A stretch of 64,000 nucleotides of DNA from Calditrichota bacterium (GTDB lineage: Bacteria > Zhuqueibacterota > Zhuqueibacteria > Zhuqueibacterales > Geothermadaptataceae): NCBI GenBank assembly GCA_008501765.1, contig QQUE01000018.1, positions 1-64,000 on the forward strand, given 5' to 3'. Positions 22,571 through 33,002 of this stretch are shown here, piece by piece. The translations under genes were made by a program, and so were the position numbers. Below the pieces are notes generated by a model. The model ran no database searches, was not told the origin of the DNA, and saw only the letters and a list, made by a program, of their open reading frames with translations. Position 1 is the stretch's first letter. Every line of letters starts with the position of its first letter.

Positions 22571-24139
22571 ATGAAGCGGTCTCTAAAAATATTTGTTGTG
22601 TTTTTGCTGGCGGCAGGATTGGTCTCAGCTCAGAATAATTCCACAACAAATCAATCCGGCGCAGGCAACCAGGCAACAATTACTCAAACGGGCAGCAATA
22701 GTTCAACTGATGTGCAGTCCAGTTCCACTGTCGGGAATAATGTGATCGTCAGCCAAACGGGCTCTAATTCTTCTGATAACACACAAACCGGTAATGAAAA
22801 CTCGGCCTCTGTTTTACAGAACGGTGCAAGCAACGTATCTACGGTATCGCAAATTGGCGATTTAAACATAGCTGAAATTATTCAGAATAAAACTGCCATT
22901 GGCAACGGTGGCGTCGTTACACTATCCGGGAATGAAAATGATATCGATATCGAGCAGACCAATAATTCTCAGTTCAATTCAGCTATAATCTCCGCAACGG
23001 GATATCAAAACCGTGCGTCTGTGGAACAGAATAAAAATGCTGATAGCAATACCGCCGAAATTAATCAAAATGGTACTGCAAATCGAGCATACGTGGATCA
23101 GGAAGATAGTGCCGATAATAACACGGTTTCAGTAAAGCAGGATGGTGAAAGAAACCGGGTTTACAGTTACCAGGAAGGAGCCAGTAACCACAACACTGGC
23201 ACGTTAATTCAGGATGGATTGACAAACAGTGTTTATCTTTATCAGGAAGATGGTTCTGCAGATAACCTGGCGACAATTTCACAAACCGGCGATAATAGCG
23301 CCTACATCTATCAGGAAGATGATTCACAAAATAATACCGCCACGATAATACAGGAAGATATTGGCAATAGCGTTTATGTTTATCAGGAAAACACCGCGGT
23401 AGATAATGGGGCTGCTGTAACACAAATTGGTGACAATAGCGCTTATCTCTACCAGCAAGATAATTCTCTCTCCAACTCTGCTACAATTCTCCAGACCGGC
23501 GACGACAACCGAGCCTATCTTTATCAAAAGGACACAGCTATCGACAATACAATGACAGTGATCCAAAATGGAGATGATAACCGGATTGACAGTTATCAGC
23601 AAGAGAATACTGCGGATAATAGTGCTGAATTTGATCAAACAGGTGATGACAATTATGCCTTGTCATATCAAACAGGAAACTTGAATGCTGTCACCATTGA
23701 CCAGCATGGTGCTGACAATGTTGTTGGGCAGTTAAGTGGTGTCGCTCATCCAGGTGCGAACCAAATTGGTAACAATAACACTGTTGTCATTGAGCAAATT
23801 GGCACTGACAATGTTTTACGTCAATCCGTTCAGCAAGGAAATAACAACGATTTGCAATTTTCCCAGGATGGCGTTGCAAATACGGCTGAAATAATACTTA
23901 CCGGAAATTTCAACAACGGTTCTGTCTCCGTAGTTGGCGCAGAAAACGAAGTGGATGTTGATGTTGCCGGGAACGAAAACGTGTTTGACCTGACTCAAAA
24001 TGGCAATTTTAATTCCCTGAATTTATTGACGACGGGGAATTTAAACCGGATTACCATTTCACAATCGGGAAACGCACATTCAGCGAATGTTACGCAAGAT
24101 GGAAATAGCAATATTTGTGCGGTTACGCAGGGAAATTAA
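22571..24139 (+). CDS. Curlin-repeat protein 3 (largest, with tyrosine ladder)
   Basis: 522 residues, over three times the length of E. coli CsgA. Signal peptide MKRSLKIFVVFLLAAGLVSA. Curlin repeats occupy nearly the whole mature chain. From about residue 171 to 367 they alternate in a 23-24-residue unit with a Tyr-x-Tyr-Gln strand ('NSAYIYQEDDSQNNTATI', 'NSVYVYQENTAVDNG', 'NRAYLYQKDTAIDN'), giving a ladder of aromatic residues that the neighbouring subunits lack. One cysteine is near the C-terminus ('SNICAVTQGN'). The ATG follows 'GGGGTAAATT'. Likely a structural amyloid subunit; the ladder suggests a special surface or cross-linking role (inference). Confidence 0.85.
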   Translation: MKRSLKIFVVFLLAAGLVSAQNNSTTNQSGAGNQATITQTGSNSSTDVQSSSTVGNNVIVSQTGSNSSDNTQTGNENSASVLQNGASNVSTVSQIGDLNIAEIIQNKTAIGNGGVVTLSGNENDIDIEQTNNSQFNSAIISATGYQNRASVEQNKNADSNTAEINQNGTANRAYVDQEDSADNNTVSVKQDGERNRVYSYQEGASNHNTGTLIQDGLTNSVYLYQEDGSADNLATISQTGDNSAYIYQEDDSQNNTATIIQEDIGNSVYVYQENTAVDNGAAVTQIGDNSAYLYQQDNSLSNSATILQTGDDNRAYLYQKDTAIDNTMTVIQNGDDNRIDSYQQENTADNSAEFDQTGDDNYALSYQTGNLNAVTIDQHGADNVVGQLSGVAHPGANQIGNNNTVVIEQIGTDNVLRQSVQQGNNNDLQFSQDGVANTAEIILTGNFNNGSVSVVGAENEVDVDVAGNENVFDLTQNGNFNSLNLLTTGNLNRITISQSGNAHSANVTQDGNSNICAVTQGN

Positions 24140-24196
24140 TGACTTAACTAACTTCAATCGAATATTTAATTGAATCATTCAACAATGGAGTATTTC

Positions 24197-25246
24197 ATGA
24201 AAAAATCTATCTTTTTATTTATTGTCCTCATTCTTACAGCAGGATTGGTATTCGCCCAAAGTAATGATGGAACCGTAACTCAAAATGGGAATGATAACGA
24301 TGGCGATGTGACACAAACGGGAAATTTGAATACGGCAGTTGCAGACCAAATTAATGGGGATCGGAACTCCGCAGATGTCGATCAGAATGGCGCCAGCAAT
24401 GAAGCCTATTTAACACAGGGCATGACTGTCGGATATTATTCGAGTTATGGCACGACCACTACGGATATGATATCTGACGATAATAGTGCGACTATCAATC
24501 AGGTCGGTGATGCTAATACGGTTGACTTCCTGCAAGTTGGCGAGGCAAATGTGGGTTCAATTTCCCAGGCAGGAAATGGCAATACAAGTTATGCTTATAC
24601 TGGCTGGGCTGGCGATTGGTGGGGATTCGGTGGTGTTGTCGCCTCACTTTACAGTGACAACAGTACGGTAAATATTTCTCAAACAGGAAATGACCACTAC
24701 GCAGCCGTCTGGCAATATGGCGGCAACCTTAACGATGTCACGATAACGCAAACTTTAAACGATAATTATTCCTCAATTGCGCAGGGATTTATATATGATG
24801 ATCTCAATTATGATTTTACGAATCCTATTTATAATGTTGAAAATAATGATGCATCTGTAGCGCAATATGGAGTAGATAACTCACTTCGTTTATTCCAATT
24901 GGGTGATGATAACTCTTTTGACCTGATACAGAATGGGGATATAAATACGGTTGGCGGCAGAGGCCTGTCGGGACTTGAAGCCAAACGGAACGGTTATTTC
25001 ACACAAGATGGGAATCGCAATTTATTTACCGGCGTGCAAAATGACGGTGCAACATTGGACCATGCCAGTTACCAGAATGGCGATGATAATATTATCGATC
25101 TGACACAAGGTGAGGACGATCTGGGTTTAATCCAGCAAGACGGTGATAATAACTCCGCGTTGTTGTTGCAAACAGGGACCGGGCATTCCGGTACCATCGT
25201 TCAAACCGGCAATATGAATGATGCTGTAGTCACACAACAAGATTAA
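24197..25246 (+). CDS. Curlin-repeat protein 4
   Basis: 349 residues from the ATG at 24197 (ATGGAG upstream), starting the signal peptide MKKSIFLFIVLILTAGLVFA. Curlin repeats 'SNDGTVTQNGNDNDGDVTQT' onward, ending 'GHSGTIVQTGNMNDAVVTQQ'. Two non-repeat inserts break the array: an aromatic Gly/Trp/Tyr-rich stretch ('YTGWAGDWWGFGG') and a longer linker near 'IYDDLNYDFTNPIYN'. Such inserts may be loops displayed on the fibre edge. Only 57 bp after protein 3, so likely co-transcribed. Confidence 0.85.
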   Translation: MKKSIFLFIVLILTAGLVFAQSNDGTVTQNGNDNDGDVTQTGNLNTAVADQINGDRNSADVDQNGASNEAYLTQGMTVGYYSSYGTTTTDMISDDNSATINQVGDANTVDFLQVGEANVGSISQAGNGNTSYAYTGWAGDWWGFGGVVASLYSDNSTVNISQTGNDHYAAVWQYGGNLNDVTITQTLNDNYSSIAQGFIYDDLNYDFTNPIYNVENNDASVAQYGVDNSLRLFQLGDDNSFDLIQNGDINTVGGRGLSGLEAKRNGYFTQDGNRNLFTGVQNDGATLDHASYQNGDDNIIDLTQGEDDLGLIQQDGDNNSALLLQTGTGHSGTIVQTGNMNDAVVTQQD

Positions 25247-25346
25247 GCTTGGCGAGGTTCCTTCGAATAATCTTTTAAATATGTAAATCAAACCAGGCAG
25301 GGCTTAAATGGCCATGAATTTTTATTTCAAACAAAAGGAATTTAAA

Positions 25347-26348
25347 ATGAAAAATCTATTCTTTGTATTTATCGCGATTCTGCTTTGCGCAGGATTAACT
25401 TTTGCTCAAACAAACAACGCCACTGTAAATCAGACAGGCGATGAAAATGATGGTGATGTGACTCAAACAGGCGCAACGAATACGGCTACCGTAGATCAGT
25501 ATGGGAAAAACCTTGCGGAAGTTGATCAAACCGGTACCAGCAATAACGCTGATGTAGATCAGGGAACGGCAGCGGTACCCCGCAGCAACAATCATCCGCC
25601 GGCCTACGTTGGTGACCACGAATGGGGCGCCTGGATTGAACAAGTCGGCAATACCAATACGGCTGTTATCGATCAACAAGGCAATAGCGGCAGTGCTGAT
25701 ATTTACCAGCTTGGAAATTTAAATGAGGGCTATCAGGAAATTAACACATTCGCGAGTGGGGCGACATCAACTACGCGCAAAGGTTTGGATATTGACCAAA
25801 TTGGAGATGAAAACTGGGCAAACCAAAAAACAGTTGCCAGTTTCGGATCATTCGGTATTAAAAAAATGTATGTCGATCAAATTGGTGACAATAACCTGGC
25901 TGACCAATATAGCAAAGGTGGTATGCAATCGACTATGGAAATCCGGCAGGAAGGAAATGGCAATGACTATACTGTTGACGTAAGTGCAACGGGTAAACCT
26001 TCTCCACTGGCGATGTCCTTCGTCGATAAACCGGCCGGCGATTTTACACAATACCAAAACGGCCGATTCAGCACAGCAAGTATTGATATCCTTGGTGACG
26101 ATAATCATACCGCGCAATATCAGGAATATACGGTTTGGTCAACCTCTGGCGCAAACTACGCTGAAATTGATATTTTAGGCGATTTCAATAATGCTGCCCA
26201 GGGCCAAATTGGCGAAAATAATACAGCGACGATCGATATGGTTGGTGATGCGAATGTGGGAGCCATTTCTCAGACGGGCAGCAGTCATATTGGCGATATC
26301 ACGCAAACAGGAAATAATAATACATCTTCCGTAATTCAGAGTGATTAA
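25347..26348 (+). CDS. Curlin-repeat protein 5 (paralogue of protein 6)
   Basis: 333 residues from the ATG at 25347 (AAAAGGAA upstream). Signal peptide MKNLFFVFIAILLCAGLTFA. Opens 'NATVNQTGDENDGDVTQTGA' with 'TVDQYGKNLAEVDQTGTSNN', nearly identical to the next gene, and the two keep the same order of inserts ('GAWIEQVGNTNTAVI', 'FGSFGIKKMYVDQIGDNN', 'FTQYQNGRFSTASIDILGDD'). Ends 'GDITQTGNNNTSSVIQSD'. A tandem duplicate pair. Amyloid subunit by family. Confidence 0.87.
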   Translation: MKNLFFVFIAILLCAGLTFAQTNNATVNQTGDENDGDVTQTGATNTATVDQYGKNLAEVDQTGTSNNADVDQGTAAVPRSNNHPPAYVGDHEWGAWIEQVGNTNTAVIDQQGNSGSADIYQLGNLNEGYQEINTFASGATSTTRKGLDIDQIGDENWANQKTVASFGSFGIKKMYVDQIGDNNLADQYSKGGMQSTMEIRQEGNGNDYTVDVSATGKPSPLAMSFVDKPAGDFTQYQNGRFSTASIDILGDDNHTAQYQEYTVWSTSGANYAEIDILGDFNNAAQGQIGENNTATIDMVGDANVGAISQTGSSHIGDITQTGNNNTSSVIQSD

Positions 26349-26419
26349 TTATTATTTTTGCAGGAAAATCCATTCAGGATGCAGCAACTTGACTTTATTA
26401 AACTCAATAGGAGTAAATT

Positions 26420-27550
26420 GTGAAGAAATATGTATTTATAATATTAATTCTACTCATCGCCACAGGTTTAGTTTACGCGCAATCCAACAACGCTGCGGTA
26501 AATCAAACAGGCGATGAAAATGATGCGACGGTTGACCAGGCAGGTGCCACAAACATCGCCACAGTCGATCAATTTGGGAAAAACCTTGCCGATGTTGATC
26601 AGACCGGGACATCAAACACAGCAGACGTTGATCAGGGAACGGCGGTGAATCCTGTAACAAACGTTCCGTCGACATATCACAATAAAGGTGCCTGGATTAA
26701 TCAGGTCGGAAGTAATAACGAGGCTTCTATCGCCTCTCAGAATGACGGTTCAATGTATAATAGCGGTAGCGGCAATGCTGGAAACATTGATCAAGCTGGC
26801 GACGCGAACATTGCGGAACAGGTGCTGAGTTCACATACTTCTCAACGCGCAAAAACTTCTGCGCGCATGGCAGTAGAAATAGATCAAATCGGTGATGGAA
26901 ATGAAGCCTATCAACGCACCCGCGGCAATTTTGGCAGCTATGGCATTCAACAAATGTGGGTTGATCAAACCGGTTCAGATAACTACGTGAACCAGTACAG
27001 CAATGGTGGAATGCAGTCAGTTATGACGGTTGACCAGGCCGGTGATAATAACGAAACGGCCATTAGTTCTGATGTTTCAGCTACCGGTATGGTTAGCCCG
27101 CTCGATTTGCCATGGGGCACGAAAATGCATCCGGCAAATGCAGGAGGTATAAATGCGGCTGCAATTTCCAGCGGAACTTACACGCAATATCAAAATGGAC
27201 GTTATAGTACCGCAATTATCAATATTGCCGGGACCAGCAATTTGACAACACAGGCGCAGGAATTTACTGTGTGGTCGGCGAGTGGTCAAAACTCGGCAAC
27301 CATAAATATCGCCGGGGACGCCAATGCGTTAATTCAAGGTCAAATGGGTGAGTATAACGACTCTGATATGGAAATTGTCGGAGATGGAAACGTCGCAACC
27401 TCGAGCCAGGAAGGTGACAGCAATGTAGCAGATATAGATCTCATTGGTGATTCAAATATCGGTGCGGTCATGCAGACGGGCGATTCCCATAATGGCGTAA
27501 TCAACCAAATCGGCAACAATAATGTGGCAAAGGTAACTCAATCTGAATAG
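26420..27550 (+). CDS. Curlin-repeat protein 6 (paralogue of protein 5)
   Basis: 376 residues from a GTG at 26420 with TAGGAG upstream. Signal peptide (M)KKYVFIILILLIATGLVYA. It is collinear with protein 5: 'NAAVNQTGDENDATVDQAGA', 'FGKNLADVDQTGTSNTADVD', 'FGSYGIQQMWVDQTGSDNYV', 'YTQYQNGRYSTAIINIAGTS'. About 40 residues longer than its twin through inserts, for example near 'SPLDLPWGTKMHPANAGG'. Starts 71 bp after protein 5. Recent tandem duplication with divergence is the simplest reading. Confidence 0.87.
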   Translation: MKKYVFIILILLIATGLVYAQSNNAAVNQTGDENDATVDQAGATNIATVDQFGKNLADVDQTGTSNTADVDQGTAVNPVTNVPSTYHNKGAWINQVGSNNEASIASQNDGSMYNSGSGNAGNIDQAGDANIAEQVLSSHTSQRAKTSARMAVEIDQIGDGNEAYQRTRGNFGSYGIQQMWVDQTGSDNYVNQYSNGGMQSVMTVDQAGDNNETAISSDVSATGMVSPLDLPWGTKMHPANAGGINAAAISSGTYTQYQNGRYSTAIINIAGTSNLTTQAQEFTVWSASGQNSATINIAGDANALIQGQMGEYNDSDMEIVGDGNVATSSQEGDSNVADIDLIGDSNIGAVMQTGDSHNGVINQIGNNNVAKVTQSE

Positions 27551-27666
27551 TGAATTTAGGTCGTTGATCTTTCAACCAGAGATCAGCGACTTTCACTAAA
27601 ATTTGATTAAATTTCACAACATTGCACCGCAGGTTATCTGAAATAATACCTTTAGGGTTTGGTAAA

Positions 27667-28269
27667 ATGAAATACTTATCAAAAGAAATAATATTCGCAT
27701 GTTTCGTATTGATTTTTTCCCATGCTGCTCTTTTTGGACAGAATGAAGTCGATGTTGCCCAATCGGGTAATATTAATGAGGCTATTTTAACGCAAATTGG
27801 ATCAAATACGGCTTTGATTGAGCAATCGAGTCAAAATCTAATTAATAAAGTCATTCTAAGTCAATCAGGCTCGAAAAATATAATTGACATCGACCAAATT
27901 CAGCTTGGTTCTGGAAATCATCCGAATGTTGTTGAGATTGTTCAGGCCGGGATTGGCAATAATGTTGATCTGGAGCAGCAGGGCAAAGGAAATGTCGCGA
28001 TTCTGGCCCAACACGGGAATGATAACATAATCGATATGTTGCTGCAAGGGCGTGATAATTATTCTGATATAAAGCAGGTTGGTTCCGGGAATAAAGTCGT
28101 GCAGGACATCGTCGGTGATAGCTTCGTATTTGAAGTGCTTCAGGAAGGTAGCGGTAATGAAATTGTGCACATCGAAATGACTGATGAAGTGAAGAAGTAC
28201 CAAATTACCCAAACCGGTGGCATGAAAATGATTATCACTCATGGGCCAATCGGAACTGTTACAAAATAA
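27667..28269 (+). CDS. Curlin-repeat protein 7 (short; possible minor subunit)
   Basis: 200 residues from the ATG at 27667, signal peptide ending 'AALFGQ'; the open frame before it has no signal. About eight curlin repeats ('EVDVAQSGNINEAILTQIGS', 'NNVDLEQQGKGNVAILAQHG'), then a divergent basic tail 'VKKYQITQTGGMKMIITHG' ending 'TVTK'. It is close in size to E. coli CsgA/CsgB and has the charged terminal repeat of a CsgB-like protein, so it is a second candidate nucleator or fibre-capping subunit. Last gene of the array. Confidence 0.82.
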   Translation: MKYLSKEIIFACFVLIFSHAALFGQNEVDVAQSGNINEAILTQIGSNTALIEQSSQNLINKVILSQSGSKNIIDIDQIQLGSGNHPNVVEIVQAGIGNNVDLEQQGKGNVAILAQHGNDNIIDMLLQGRDNYSDIKQVGSGNKVVQDIVGDSFVFEVLQEGSGNEIVHIEMTDEVKKYQITQTGGMKMIITHGPIGTVTK

Positions 28270-30172: not shown

Positions 30173-30958
30173 CTATTGCATCAGAACCATTTTCCGGGAT
30201 TGCCGCTGATTCTCGCCTTGCAAAACGTAATAGTAAACGCCGGATGAAACACGCTGCCCGGATTGATTTTGCGCATTCCATCGATACTGATGCCCGCCAC
30301 TATCTAAAATTCCATCCATGAGAGTTTTAACAAGCCGCCCTTTTAAATCATAAATTTTTAGACTCACCCTTTGACTCTTTTCCAATGTAAAAGCCAAAGT
30401 AGTGGATGGGTTGAAAGGATTGGGATAATTTGCTGCCAAGGAAAATCTATCCGCGGTGTCTGAATTTTGTTCAACGGAAGTGGCCGTCGCTAATAGATTA
30501 TCAATGACGGAGTTTATAGCATTGGTATTTGCGCCCCAGTCAGAATATTGAATTATTCCTCCCTGATCGATGACAATGGAGTAGTCATAGCTGACGCCAT
30601 ACGCCTGGGCTACGTCACTGGCCGTAAGCCCAATCGGATAAGTGATGCCTGTCCGGTTCTTAAAATTGCGCACGCCATTTTCAGAGCCATTCCAGACATC
30701 GAGGCAAACCGCGATAAAATTTTCGTCTTTGTATCGTTGGAAAATTTGAGATTCTGTGGCTGGACCAGCCGACACACAAGCCCCTCAGTTATAGCCAACG
30801 AAAAACATGTAAATAACTTTGCCTGCATGGTCGTCCAAATTGAATTGGCCGTGCTCAAGCGTGTTTTTGGTGAAAGGCGCAGCTGGATCACCAACGCCAG
30901 CCATGGCGGGCGTGACGAATAAAAATAAAAAAATTATCAGTAAAAGTGACTTTTTCAT
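30173..30958 (-). CDS. Candidate selenoprotein: exported redoxin (UxxC) with T9SS sorting domain
   Basis: Reading the in-frame TGA at 30785-30787 as selenocysteine joins a 57-codon N-terminal part to the downstream frame, giving 261 residues. The ATG at 30958 has TTGGAG upstream and starts the signal peptide MKKSLLLIIFLFLFVTPAMA. The redoxin domain runs to about 160: 'DPAAPFTKNTLEHGQFNLDD', 'VIYMFFVGYN-U58-GAC61-VSAGPATE', then 'VCLDVWNGSENGVRNFK' and 'YDYSIVIDQGGIIQYSDWG', as in AhpC/TSA-like proteins. The TGA falls exactly on the first Cys of CxxC. A T9SS type-A domain follows ('NYPNPFNPSTTLAFTL' ... 'RKMVLMQ'). Third gene of a thiol operon, 33 bp after the DUF6029 gene. A nonsense mutation of a Cys codon is the alternative; the hairpin after the UGA and the intact downstream frame argue against it. 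Confidence 0.75.
30755..30774 (-). promoter_or_regulatory. Candidate bacterial SECIS element
   Basis: Starting 11 nt after the UGA on the minus strand, TGT (bulged C) GGCT pairs with AGCC ACA around the loop GGTCC: a 7-bp stem with one bulged pyrimidine. The GGUC loop starts 19 nt after the UGA, which by my recollection of E. coli fdhF is the same offset and loop sequence that SelB recognises there. The element lies within coding sequence, as bacterial SECIS elements do. Confidence 0.65.
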
Positions 30959-30991
30959 GGGATCGACTCCAATGTTTTGTGAAATTTAATT

Positions 30992-32509
30992 TTAAAAATT
31001 TGAACTTAAACGAAATTCAAAACCCTCGAAATCGAGGACTTCGTAGCATATCCCGGAGGTACAGGCGAGTCCGCCGCGCCTTTTTCCGTAAAACAAGCTC
31101 GCAAAATGATTTTGATTGATTTGGTAGCCAAACGTAGTGGCAAGCCAATTCTGACCATCGTTTTCAATCCGGGGAGTTGAAAAAATGTCTGTTAAGTCGG
31201 GATCAACTGAGCGTTCCCAAATCAGGCCTGCCGAAAAATTAGGGGCTCGGGATATTTCCAGTGTTCCTGCAATGTTGGTAACGTCCTGCTTCTCAATTAT
31301 TTCCCGGGTCAATTGTTGATATTCCAACCCGAGGACAGTGCCCCAGCCATGAGGCCATTCCCGGCTCAAATTTGTACCAAATGCAACACGGTTTTTTTCA
31401 AACTTGAATTCATCTTCACTCAGGTCGAAAAAAAACTTTCCACTTGTTTCTTCACTAAAATAAAAGGAGCCTTCAACGAAGAATTCTTGAAAGACTGCAT
31501 CCTTATTCAACAGTTTATTGGTTGATCTCGCGAAATTTGCCACCACCTGATTGTTCCCTTTTAAAGTCAACAAAACTTCCCCCTGCCAGCCGGTCTCATA
31601 AAGTGGTTCGACAACATGCGTGCTGCGATTCAATACAATATATTGGTGTTCCTTAACTATTGGCGGCGGATCGTTAAAATTGAGCATAAAATTCCTGTAA
31701 TCTTTTGCTTCAAAACTGAGACCGAGCGGCCCGATGAGTGCGTTGGCACCGGCATAAAATGCATGCGATGATTCATCTGCAAAGCTGAAGAGGTCTTCGG
31801 CGCCATTGTATTTTTGAGCGTATTCACTGTACAGTTGGAGATCATTTGGTAAATTCGCCGAGAAATTTATTGATCCGTACTCATTCGTTTGCGTCGGTGA
31901 GTTTTCACGCAAATAGGCATGCCCGACGCTGAAATTATCAGTGAGGTTTAATTTTATTTCCATGCCTTCGAGCAGGAGGGGACGGCGGTTTTCATTTTCA
32001 AAAGTTGGCGGCAATAAATTGAAAAGCGGTCGGCCACGCAGAAGTTTGATCTCCAGTTTCTCTGACTGATAATTCACCGCAACACCATCGAGATCGCGAT
32101 AAAAACCATAGCGCGTACGGTAAATCCGGTCTTCGAGAATATTCCCGGGAATTTCAAATGTGCGCAATAAAAGACCGCGACCAAAAATTTCATAAAAATT
32201 CCCCAACGTAATATCAAATGGAGCAAGCGAGAGCTGGATTGATTTTTGACTAAGTTCTGAATAATTTTTTTCTGGATCGGCGTGCTGAAAACGCTCAAAC
32301 TTAAATGCGGCTGTGATATTGTCCTGGCGGTACAACAGATCGAAATTATCGTACAACGTGGTCAAATTGCCCGGTGCTGTATCTGGTAAATTCCCAACCT
32401 GATACTCAGCCAGATTATTAATGGAAATCTGACCGAAAACCGGATTTATCGATACGGTTGTGAACAGAGCTATAAAAAACAAAATAGTCGCGGTGTTATT
32501 TTTGTGCAT
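30992..32509 (-). CDS. DUF6029-family outer-membrane beta-barrel protein
   Basis: About 505 residues from the ATG at 32509 (GAGGAC upstream), which overlaps the end of the thioredoxin gene by 14 bp. Signal peptide to about 28 ('NPVFGQ'). Strand-rich throughout, with 'FDITLGNFYEIFGRGLLLRT' and 'YRTRYGFYRDLDGVAVNYQS', which are characteristic of DUF6029, a Bacteroidota-type putative porin family. It ends 'FEGFEFRLSSNF' with a C-terminal Phe, as expected for a Bam substrate. It sits between two thiol-redox genes, so a role with exported redox proteins is possible (inference). Confidence 0.78.
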   Translation of the reverse strand: MHKNNTATILFFIALFTTVSINPVFGQISINNLAEYQVGNLPDTAPGNLTTLYDNFDLLYRQDNITAAFKFERFQHADPEKNYSELSQKSIQLSLAPFDITLGNFYEIFGRGLLLRTFEIPGNILEDRIYRTRYGFYRDLDGVAVNYQSEKLEIKLLRGRPLFNLLPPTFENENRRPLLLEGMEIKLNLTDNFSVGHAYLRENSPTQTNEYGSINFSANLPNDLQLYSEYAQKYNGAEDLFSFADESSHAFYAGANALIGPLGLSFEAKDYRNFMLNFNDPPPIVKEHQYIVLNRSTHVVEPLYETGWQGEVLLTLKGNNQVVANFARSTNKLLNKDAVFQEFFVEGSFYFSEETSGKFFFDLSEDEFKFEKNRVAFGTNLSREWPHGWGTVLGLEYQQLTREIIEKQDVTNIAGTLEISRAPNFSAGLIWERSVDPDLTDIFSTPRIENDGQNWLATTFGYQINQNHFASLFYGKRRGGLACTSGICYEVLDFEGFEFRLSSNF

Positions 32510-32987
32510 GCAAATAGTCCTCGATCTCCTTTTCGATAGATTTCTCATCGCCGATTCGGTAGCCCTGATGAAAGAGAATCACTTCATCTTTTTCATTGAT
32601 TATAAGCAGTGTTGGCACTGCGGTGGCGCCAAGCTGTTTTTTAATCGTGCCATTTACATCAAGAAGCACAGGAAAATTGATCCCCAGTGACCGTGCCATC
32701 GGTTTAATTTTTTGCCGGCTGCGGTTGCCGTCGACGTTTATACTGATAAAAGCGACGCCTTGATCTTTGTATTTGTCAGCTAATTTTACCAGTTTTGGAA
32801 TCGAGCGAATACAGGGTTTACACCACGTGGCCCAGAAATCGATCACGGTAAGTTTGCTGCCTTTTAACTCACTGTATTCGTTCCATTTATTGTTCATGTC
32901 CCGCAATTTAAAATTGGTGATTTTCCTCCCTGGCGCTGCAGCGGTCAGAAATATCAGGCTCATTAAAATGATTAAAATTTTTTGCAT
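32496..32987 (-). CDS. TlpA-like thioredoxin-fold protein
   Basis: 163 residues from the ATG at 32987 (GGACC upstream); an ATG five codons earlier is also possible. Signal peptide 'ILIILMSLIFLTAAAPG', so periplasmic. TlpA/ResA-type domain: 'VIDFWATWCKPCIRSIPKLV' with the CxxC redox pair, 'GVAFISINVDGN', 'GATAVPTLLIINEKDEVILF' including the cis-Pro. It reduces or protects thiols in exported proteins. First gene of the minus-strand operon tlpA-like/DUF6029/redoxin. Confidence 0.88.
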   Translation of the reverse strand: MQKILIILMSLIFLTAAAPGRKITNFKLRDMNNKWNEYSELKGSKLTVIDFWATWCKPCIRSIPKLVKLADKYKDQGVAFISINVDGNRSRQKIKPMARSLGINFPVLLDVNGTIKKQLGATAVPTLLIINEKDEVILFHQGYRIGDEKSIEKEIEDYLHAQK

Positions 32988-33002
32988 CGCTGGTCCGATC
33001 AT

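Follow-up and report, generated by a model that had tools for sequence, protein, structure and literature searches.

A minus-strand gene of a Calditrichota bacterium that seems to be broken by a stop codon almost certainly carries selenocysteine (Sec) at that codon, the UGA at 30787-30785 of the window (the whole 64,000-nucleotide stretch of DNA that was analysed). This reading, which is drawn from sequence data, is based on the Sec machinery of the genome, the conservation of the TGA at a Cys site, a covarying hairpin and purifying selection around the UGA, and we consider it highly probable that the gene encodes a selenoredoxin with a type IX secretion system (T9SS) tail. The tRNA-Sec and SelB would decode this UGA as Sec, directed by the hairpin that lies just downstream. 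Standard ORF calling masks the gene as a truncated ORF of 200 residues, and what looks like a frame interrupted by a stop is very likely the intact gene of a secreted selenium redox protein, in an arrangement common to many related bacteria.

Results

Direct reading of the minus-strand frame from 30958 to 30173 showed that its sole in-frame stop is the TGA at 30787-30785 and that it is otherwise open from the ATG (30958-30956) to the TAG (30175-30173), as a first-pass annotation of this DNA had claimed; with the UGA as Sec, the product of the selenoredoxin gene (30173..30958) would have 261 residues. The signal peptide and ribosome site reported in that annotation were also recovered: a GGAG (30967..30970), read directly, stands about 9 nt upstream of the ATG, and residues 1-20 (30899..30958, MKKSLLLIIFLFLFVTPAMA) were judged by eye to be a signal peptide, the model having a helix at residues 2-13. 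A ResA-like AhpC-TSA/Redoxin domain follows at residues 22-146 (30521..30895, Pfam E 1.8e-8), with the UGA codon (30785..30787) as Sec58 in the first Cys position of the CxxC, within ...MFFVGYN-U-GACVSAGP... (active site U-G-A-C), and Cys61 (30776..30778) as the second residue of the U-x-x-C pair. The C-terminal domain (30185..30427, YPNPFNP...) is a T9SS type A sorting domain that matches Por_Secre_tail/FlgD-like (Pfam Por_Secre_tail 1.7e-8; TIGR04183 38.6 bits, cut-off 23). The conventional ORF of the locus (30173-30775, GTG start at 30775) has 200 residues and includes neither signal peptide nor active site, in agreement with the earlier description, which had overlooked both the sorting domain for T9SS and the conserved operon presented below.

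Homologues were gathered by six-frame searches reading through stops and, after removal of duplicates, 65 distinct domains were readable at the codon. At the UGA column 47 of them carry a Cys codon (28 TGC, 19 TGT) and the other 18 a TGA, so that the column holds Cys or UGA only, exactly where the TGA had been assigned to the first Cys of the redoxin motif. The column of Cys61 is invariant (TGC or TGT in 65/65), with no TGA at this second Cys in any of the 65, and in each of the 18 TGA homologues the stretch from -55 to +100 contains a single TGA. On a quick tree built without the trait column, parsimony gave nine Sec/Cys exchanges as the best estimate, at least three of them on well-supported branches. 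Five further long frames of the window that are broken by a TGA showed no UxxC or CxxU at the TGA.

Several loci contained more than one redoxin. In one genome (G054, L192:966-2911) Sec and Cys redoxin copies stand in tandem as a natural Sec/Cys pair, and such pairs at one locus offer material for asking why Sec would serve outside the cell. Two other genomes (G069 and G048; L203:4689-6106 and L202:3793-5881) have two nearby redoxin frames each with a TGA at the first Cys, their motifs (UHDC/URDC and UGTC/UNQC) being those of apparent paired selenoproteins. A longer family (683-693 aa), whose redoxin domain has UPVC, was seen near the same modules (L194:5989-8067, L200:5813-7861), and a T9SS tail was found in it (L200 copy, read as L137).

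The draft genome (5.9 Mb, 21 contigs) encodes the complete set that the first-pass annotation had proposed to look for. SelA (544 bits), SelB (342 bits, nearly the whole model covered), SelD (353 bits) and a tRNA-Sec (selC, 66.4 bits, anticodon UCA) all exceeded their cut-offs. The SelD gene (L158, G000:C3:229267-230187) has an in-frame TGA within SSCGUAAK, so SelD is apparently a selenoprotein too. Of the phylum's 82 genomes, 63 had SelA above the cut-off. It is present in every genome that holds a TGA version of the core family except G002, which is 67% complete, and genome G067, where SelA is absent, carries a Cys version.

Folding and family comparison disclosed a SECIS-like hairpin downstream of the UGA, with the core GGCUG-GUC-CAGCC (30758..30770, minus strand) identical in three species. 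Its GGUC spans nt 19-22 downstream of the UGA, the distance also found in E. coli fdhF (the reference segment is present in 5,368 of 5,426 E. coli genomes), which bears out the spacing noted before; the hairpin had been said to begin at 11 nt, and in this the earlier description did not hold, the core stem starting at 15 nt and only weaker outer pairs beginning nearer the UGA. Compared with the fdhF SECIS, the flanking sequence differs and the upper stem is shorter. An alternative fold has a 4-bp stem and the loop GGUCC. According to the bSECIS rules as given in PMC13188914, the loop has 3-9 nt with a G in its first two positions, the upper stem 4-16 bp, the distance from the UGA is 16-37 nt and the MFE at most -7.5; the window hairpin agrees with all of them, having the loop GUC with G first, 5 bp, 19 nt and an MFE of -9.1 to -11.9 kcal/mol. 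Taken alone it is not exceptional against dinucleotide shuffles (z = 0.10), 4-20% of synonymous recodings fold as well, and an Rfam search of the window gave no SECIS match. As the single hairpin is not significant, the argument rests on covariation at the family level. TGA sequences have a stem whose centre lies some 20 nt past the UGA; its mean length was 6.4 bp, as opposed to 3.6 bp for the Cys homologues (p = 1e-8), and the folding energies were -9.5 and -3.2 kcal/mol, respectively (p = 3e-9), p values that are indicative since related sequences are not independent. Fourteen TGA sequences share one register, in which 90% of the cells are standard pairs vs 39% in the Cys homologues, with 2-5 pair types per stem position. 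The window and two relatives pair in another register, shifted outward by 2 nt, and GGCTGGTCCAGCC is identical in all three even though synonymous sites are near saturation when the window is compared with its nearest relative.

The genome also encodes SprA (200.8 bits) and PorU (845 bits), and the PorU search returned more than 40 further matches, restricted to the tail region and including the selenoredoxin, which indicates that many proteins of the genome are of the T9SS sorting type. Signal peptide, sorting domain and the presence of SprA and PorU, the features of T9SS type A cargo, are thus all found for the selenoredoxin, and its export by this system is probable: the signal peptide would bring the protein into the periplasm, from where its C-terminal domain would route it via the type IX system onto the cell surface. 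From this domain content we predict that it is probably a surface protein. If so, a residue as reactive and easily oxidised as Sec is carried by a surface protein that the type IX system exports.

Immediately upstream of the selenoredoxin, on the same strand, are a gene for a TlpA/ResA-like thioredoxin (32496..33002, WATWCKPC, Pfam AhpC-TSA 7e-21), which overlaps the start of the next gene, and a DUF6029 outer-membrane beta-barrel gene (30992..32548, likely start 32509; PF19494 E 9.5e-25, 87.7 bits over 27), separated from the selenoredoxin by 33 nt. Core-family loci keep at least one of the two wherever the contig reaches far enough, and both where enough contig is available on the right side. 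The other DUF6029 loci usually retain the TlpA-like gene and, where the contig shows it, the third partner often has a T9SS tail and a TGTWCxxC-like motif, mostly in an Omp28 protein. Loci of this kind without selenoredoxin (L248-L260) have DUF6029 and TlpA-like genes, often with Omp28-domain proteins bearing T9SS tails or PEGA domains. The T9SS-tailed Omp28 proteins beside TlpA/DUF6029 take the same position within the module and are likewise CxxC proteins with a T9SS tail, but they belong to another domain family (PF11551), have Cys instead of Sec and are larger. The TlpA-like thioredoxin, the DUF6029 barrel and a T9SS-tailed thioredoxin-fold protein, either selenoredoxin or Omp28, form, as judged from gene order and predicted domains, a conserved module, and a functional link of the selenoredoxin with DUF6029 and TlpA appears probable.

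As modelled (pLDDT 86), DUF6029 is an outer-membrane barrel about as large as an usher. Its fold matches were the FimD usher pore as the best (Z 19.7), the Mtr complex lower (Z 15.1), porin barrels and AlgE, and such usher, porin and Mtr matches tell the size of the barrel and not its function. Sequence searches found no PDB relative, and no relative was found in viral contigs. In all 21 DUF6029 proteins with their C-terminus on the contig, the region of the last barrel hairpin keeps a CxxGxC motif, which in the window reads CTSGIC (31046..31063, minus strand). The loop of this last hairpin is normally extracellular in outer-membrane barrels, which would place the CxxGxC outside, where a T9SS-exported protein is expected.

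Beside the selenoredoxin locus, the plus strand of the window (22571-28269) encodes a cluster of secreted proteins in which Gly-Asn-rich motifs recur; both of those scanned match curlin repeats (PF07012), and the cluster is a candidate for curli-like fibres.

The selenoredoxin was modelled with Cys in place of Sec (AF2, pLDDT 85.5). ResA was its best PDB match by sequence, and the model superposed on ResA 1su9 with an rmsd of 1.8 A (TMt 0.88). Pfam assigned PF00578 (34.8 bits, cut-off 26) and PF08534 (34.1 bits, cut-off 26.6), so that the domain and the UxxC of the UxxC AhpC-TSA/Redoxin definition are both present. The protein scored 47.9 bits with the ResA profile NF002854, below its curated cut-off of 170, and is hence ResA-like rather than ResA. 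The thioredoxin-type cis-Pro, which precedes the strand that follows the helix region of the active site, is absent (the sequence is YDYSIV), and the detailed chemistry may therefore differ.

Discussion

The recurrent association with DUF6029 and TlpA invites a tentative functional proposal. It is possible, if doubtful, that TlpA, DUF6029 and the selenoredoxin or Omp28 act as a relay by which thiol reducing power, or disulfides, would cross the outer membrane and reach the surface. With lower confidence, the TlpA-like protein might supply electrons or swap disulfides on the periplasmic side, and the selenoredoxin, outside the cell, might have as its targets the barrel's CxxGxC pair or substrates at the surface; its placement at the surface and its contact with the barrel are predicted from domain content and gene order. 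A similarly modest probability attaches to a different use of the operon, the export of polysaccharide or another polymer, in which the redox proteins would only make or repair a disulfide of the DUF6029 barrel. The sole paper that we found mentioning DUF6029 suggests a role in polysaccharide export and links the domain by similarity to Wzi-type export barrels (PMC9603273), the export barrel AlgE is among its structural matches, and the CxxGxC could be a structural disulfide; against this, the recurrent partners of DUF6029 are thioredoxin-fold proteins, and a non-systematic look at the window noticed no adjacent polysaccharide genes. What the module itself suggests for DUF6029 is the role of a barrel that is redox-active or bears a disulfide and that is linked to partners of the thioredoxin fold.

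With respect to its chemistry, the selenoprotein is likely a thiol-disulfide oxidoreductase of the ResA/TlpA fold, in whose Sec-Gly-Ala-Cys site Sec58 would be the nucleophile and Cys61 would resolve. That it is instead a Prx-like surface peroxidase seems rather improbable: the match to AhpC-TSA/Redoxin and the peroxiredoxin structures among the matches of the model are compatible with such an activity, but the best fit of both sequence and structure is ResA, and the second Cys of the U-x-x-C is invariant, as in thioredoxins.

Explanations of the UGA other than Sec have a very small probability. Insertion of another amino acid, through near-cognate suppression or a reassigned UGA, is known in principle, as UGA read-through occurs in other systems, but the column is otherwise Cys only, and the machinery for Sec is present, as is a SECIS-like hairpin that covaries. 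We rejected reassignment since TGA is a normal stop in the window, where it terminates 13 of the 48 ORFs of at least 150 aa. Equally improbable is a pseudogene created by nonsense mutation or a misassembled TGC/TGT, as might be thought of a frame broken by TGA in a draft genome, and we discarded both on account of TGA conservation and purifying selection. Searches in six frames found relatives with one TGA spread over many genera, and one of the 18 distinct homologues with the same-codon TGA lies outside the phylum (genome G082; the final genome search, aimed at another phylum, took in one genome), which makes an assembly error very unlikely. Moreover, homologues align over the whole length of the protein, across the TGA and without frameshift, and a comparison of the selenoredoxin gene with that of the nearest relative (65% identity) gave a pN of 0.14 before the UGA and 0.16 after it (to residue 155), with pS of 0.95 and 0.72, respectively, low ratios that denote purifying selection on both sides.

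The Sec protein of the window can thus be set against the known families. It shares the fold and active-site position of the ResA/TlpA oxidoreductases and differs from them in having Sec for Cys, a C-terminal sorting domain and no membrane anchor, the cis-Pro being missing in its clade. Like NF041054, the ResA-like WAxxUGC motif protein, it represents a ResA-like selenoprotein family; NF041054 has UGC by its family name and the window protein UxxC, the selenoredoxin (P0001) gave no match to that profile at E 0.01, and two of its relatives score 43-49 with a cut-off of 300. Our search of the open-access literature found no report of a T9SS-sorted selenoprotein, and a T9SS-sorted UxxC selenoredoxin in a DUF6029/TlpA module appears to be new. 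UxxC selenoproteins of the AhpC-TSA/PF08534 type are known, as Prx-like thiol:disulfide oxidoreductase and "Redoxin family protein", from PMC9312934 and PMC13188914. They have in common with the window protein the Sec at the first Cys of the CxxC and the AhpC-TSA/Redoxin fold; the passages on them describe no T9SS tail, and the window gene is distinguished from them by its operon with DUF6029 and TlpA.
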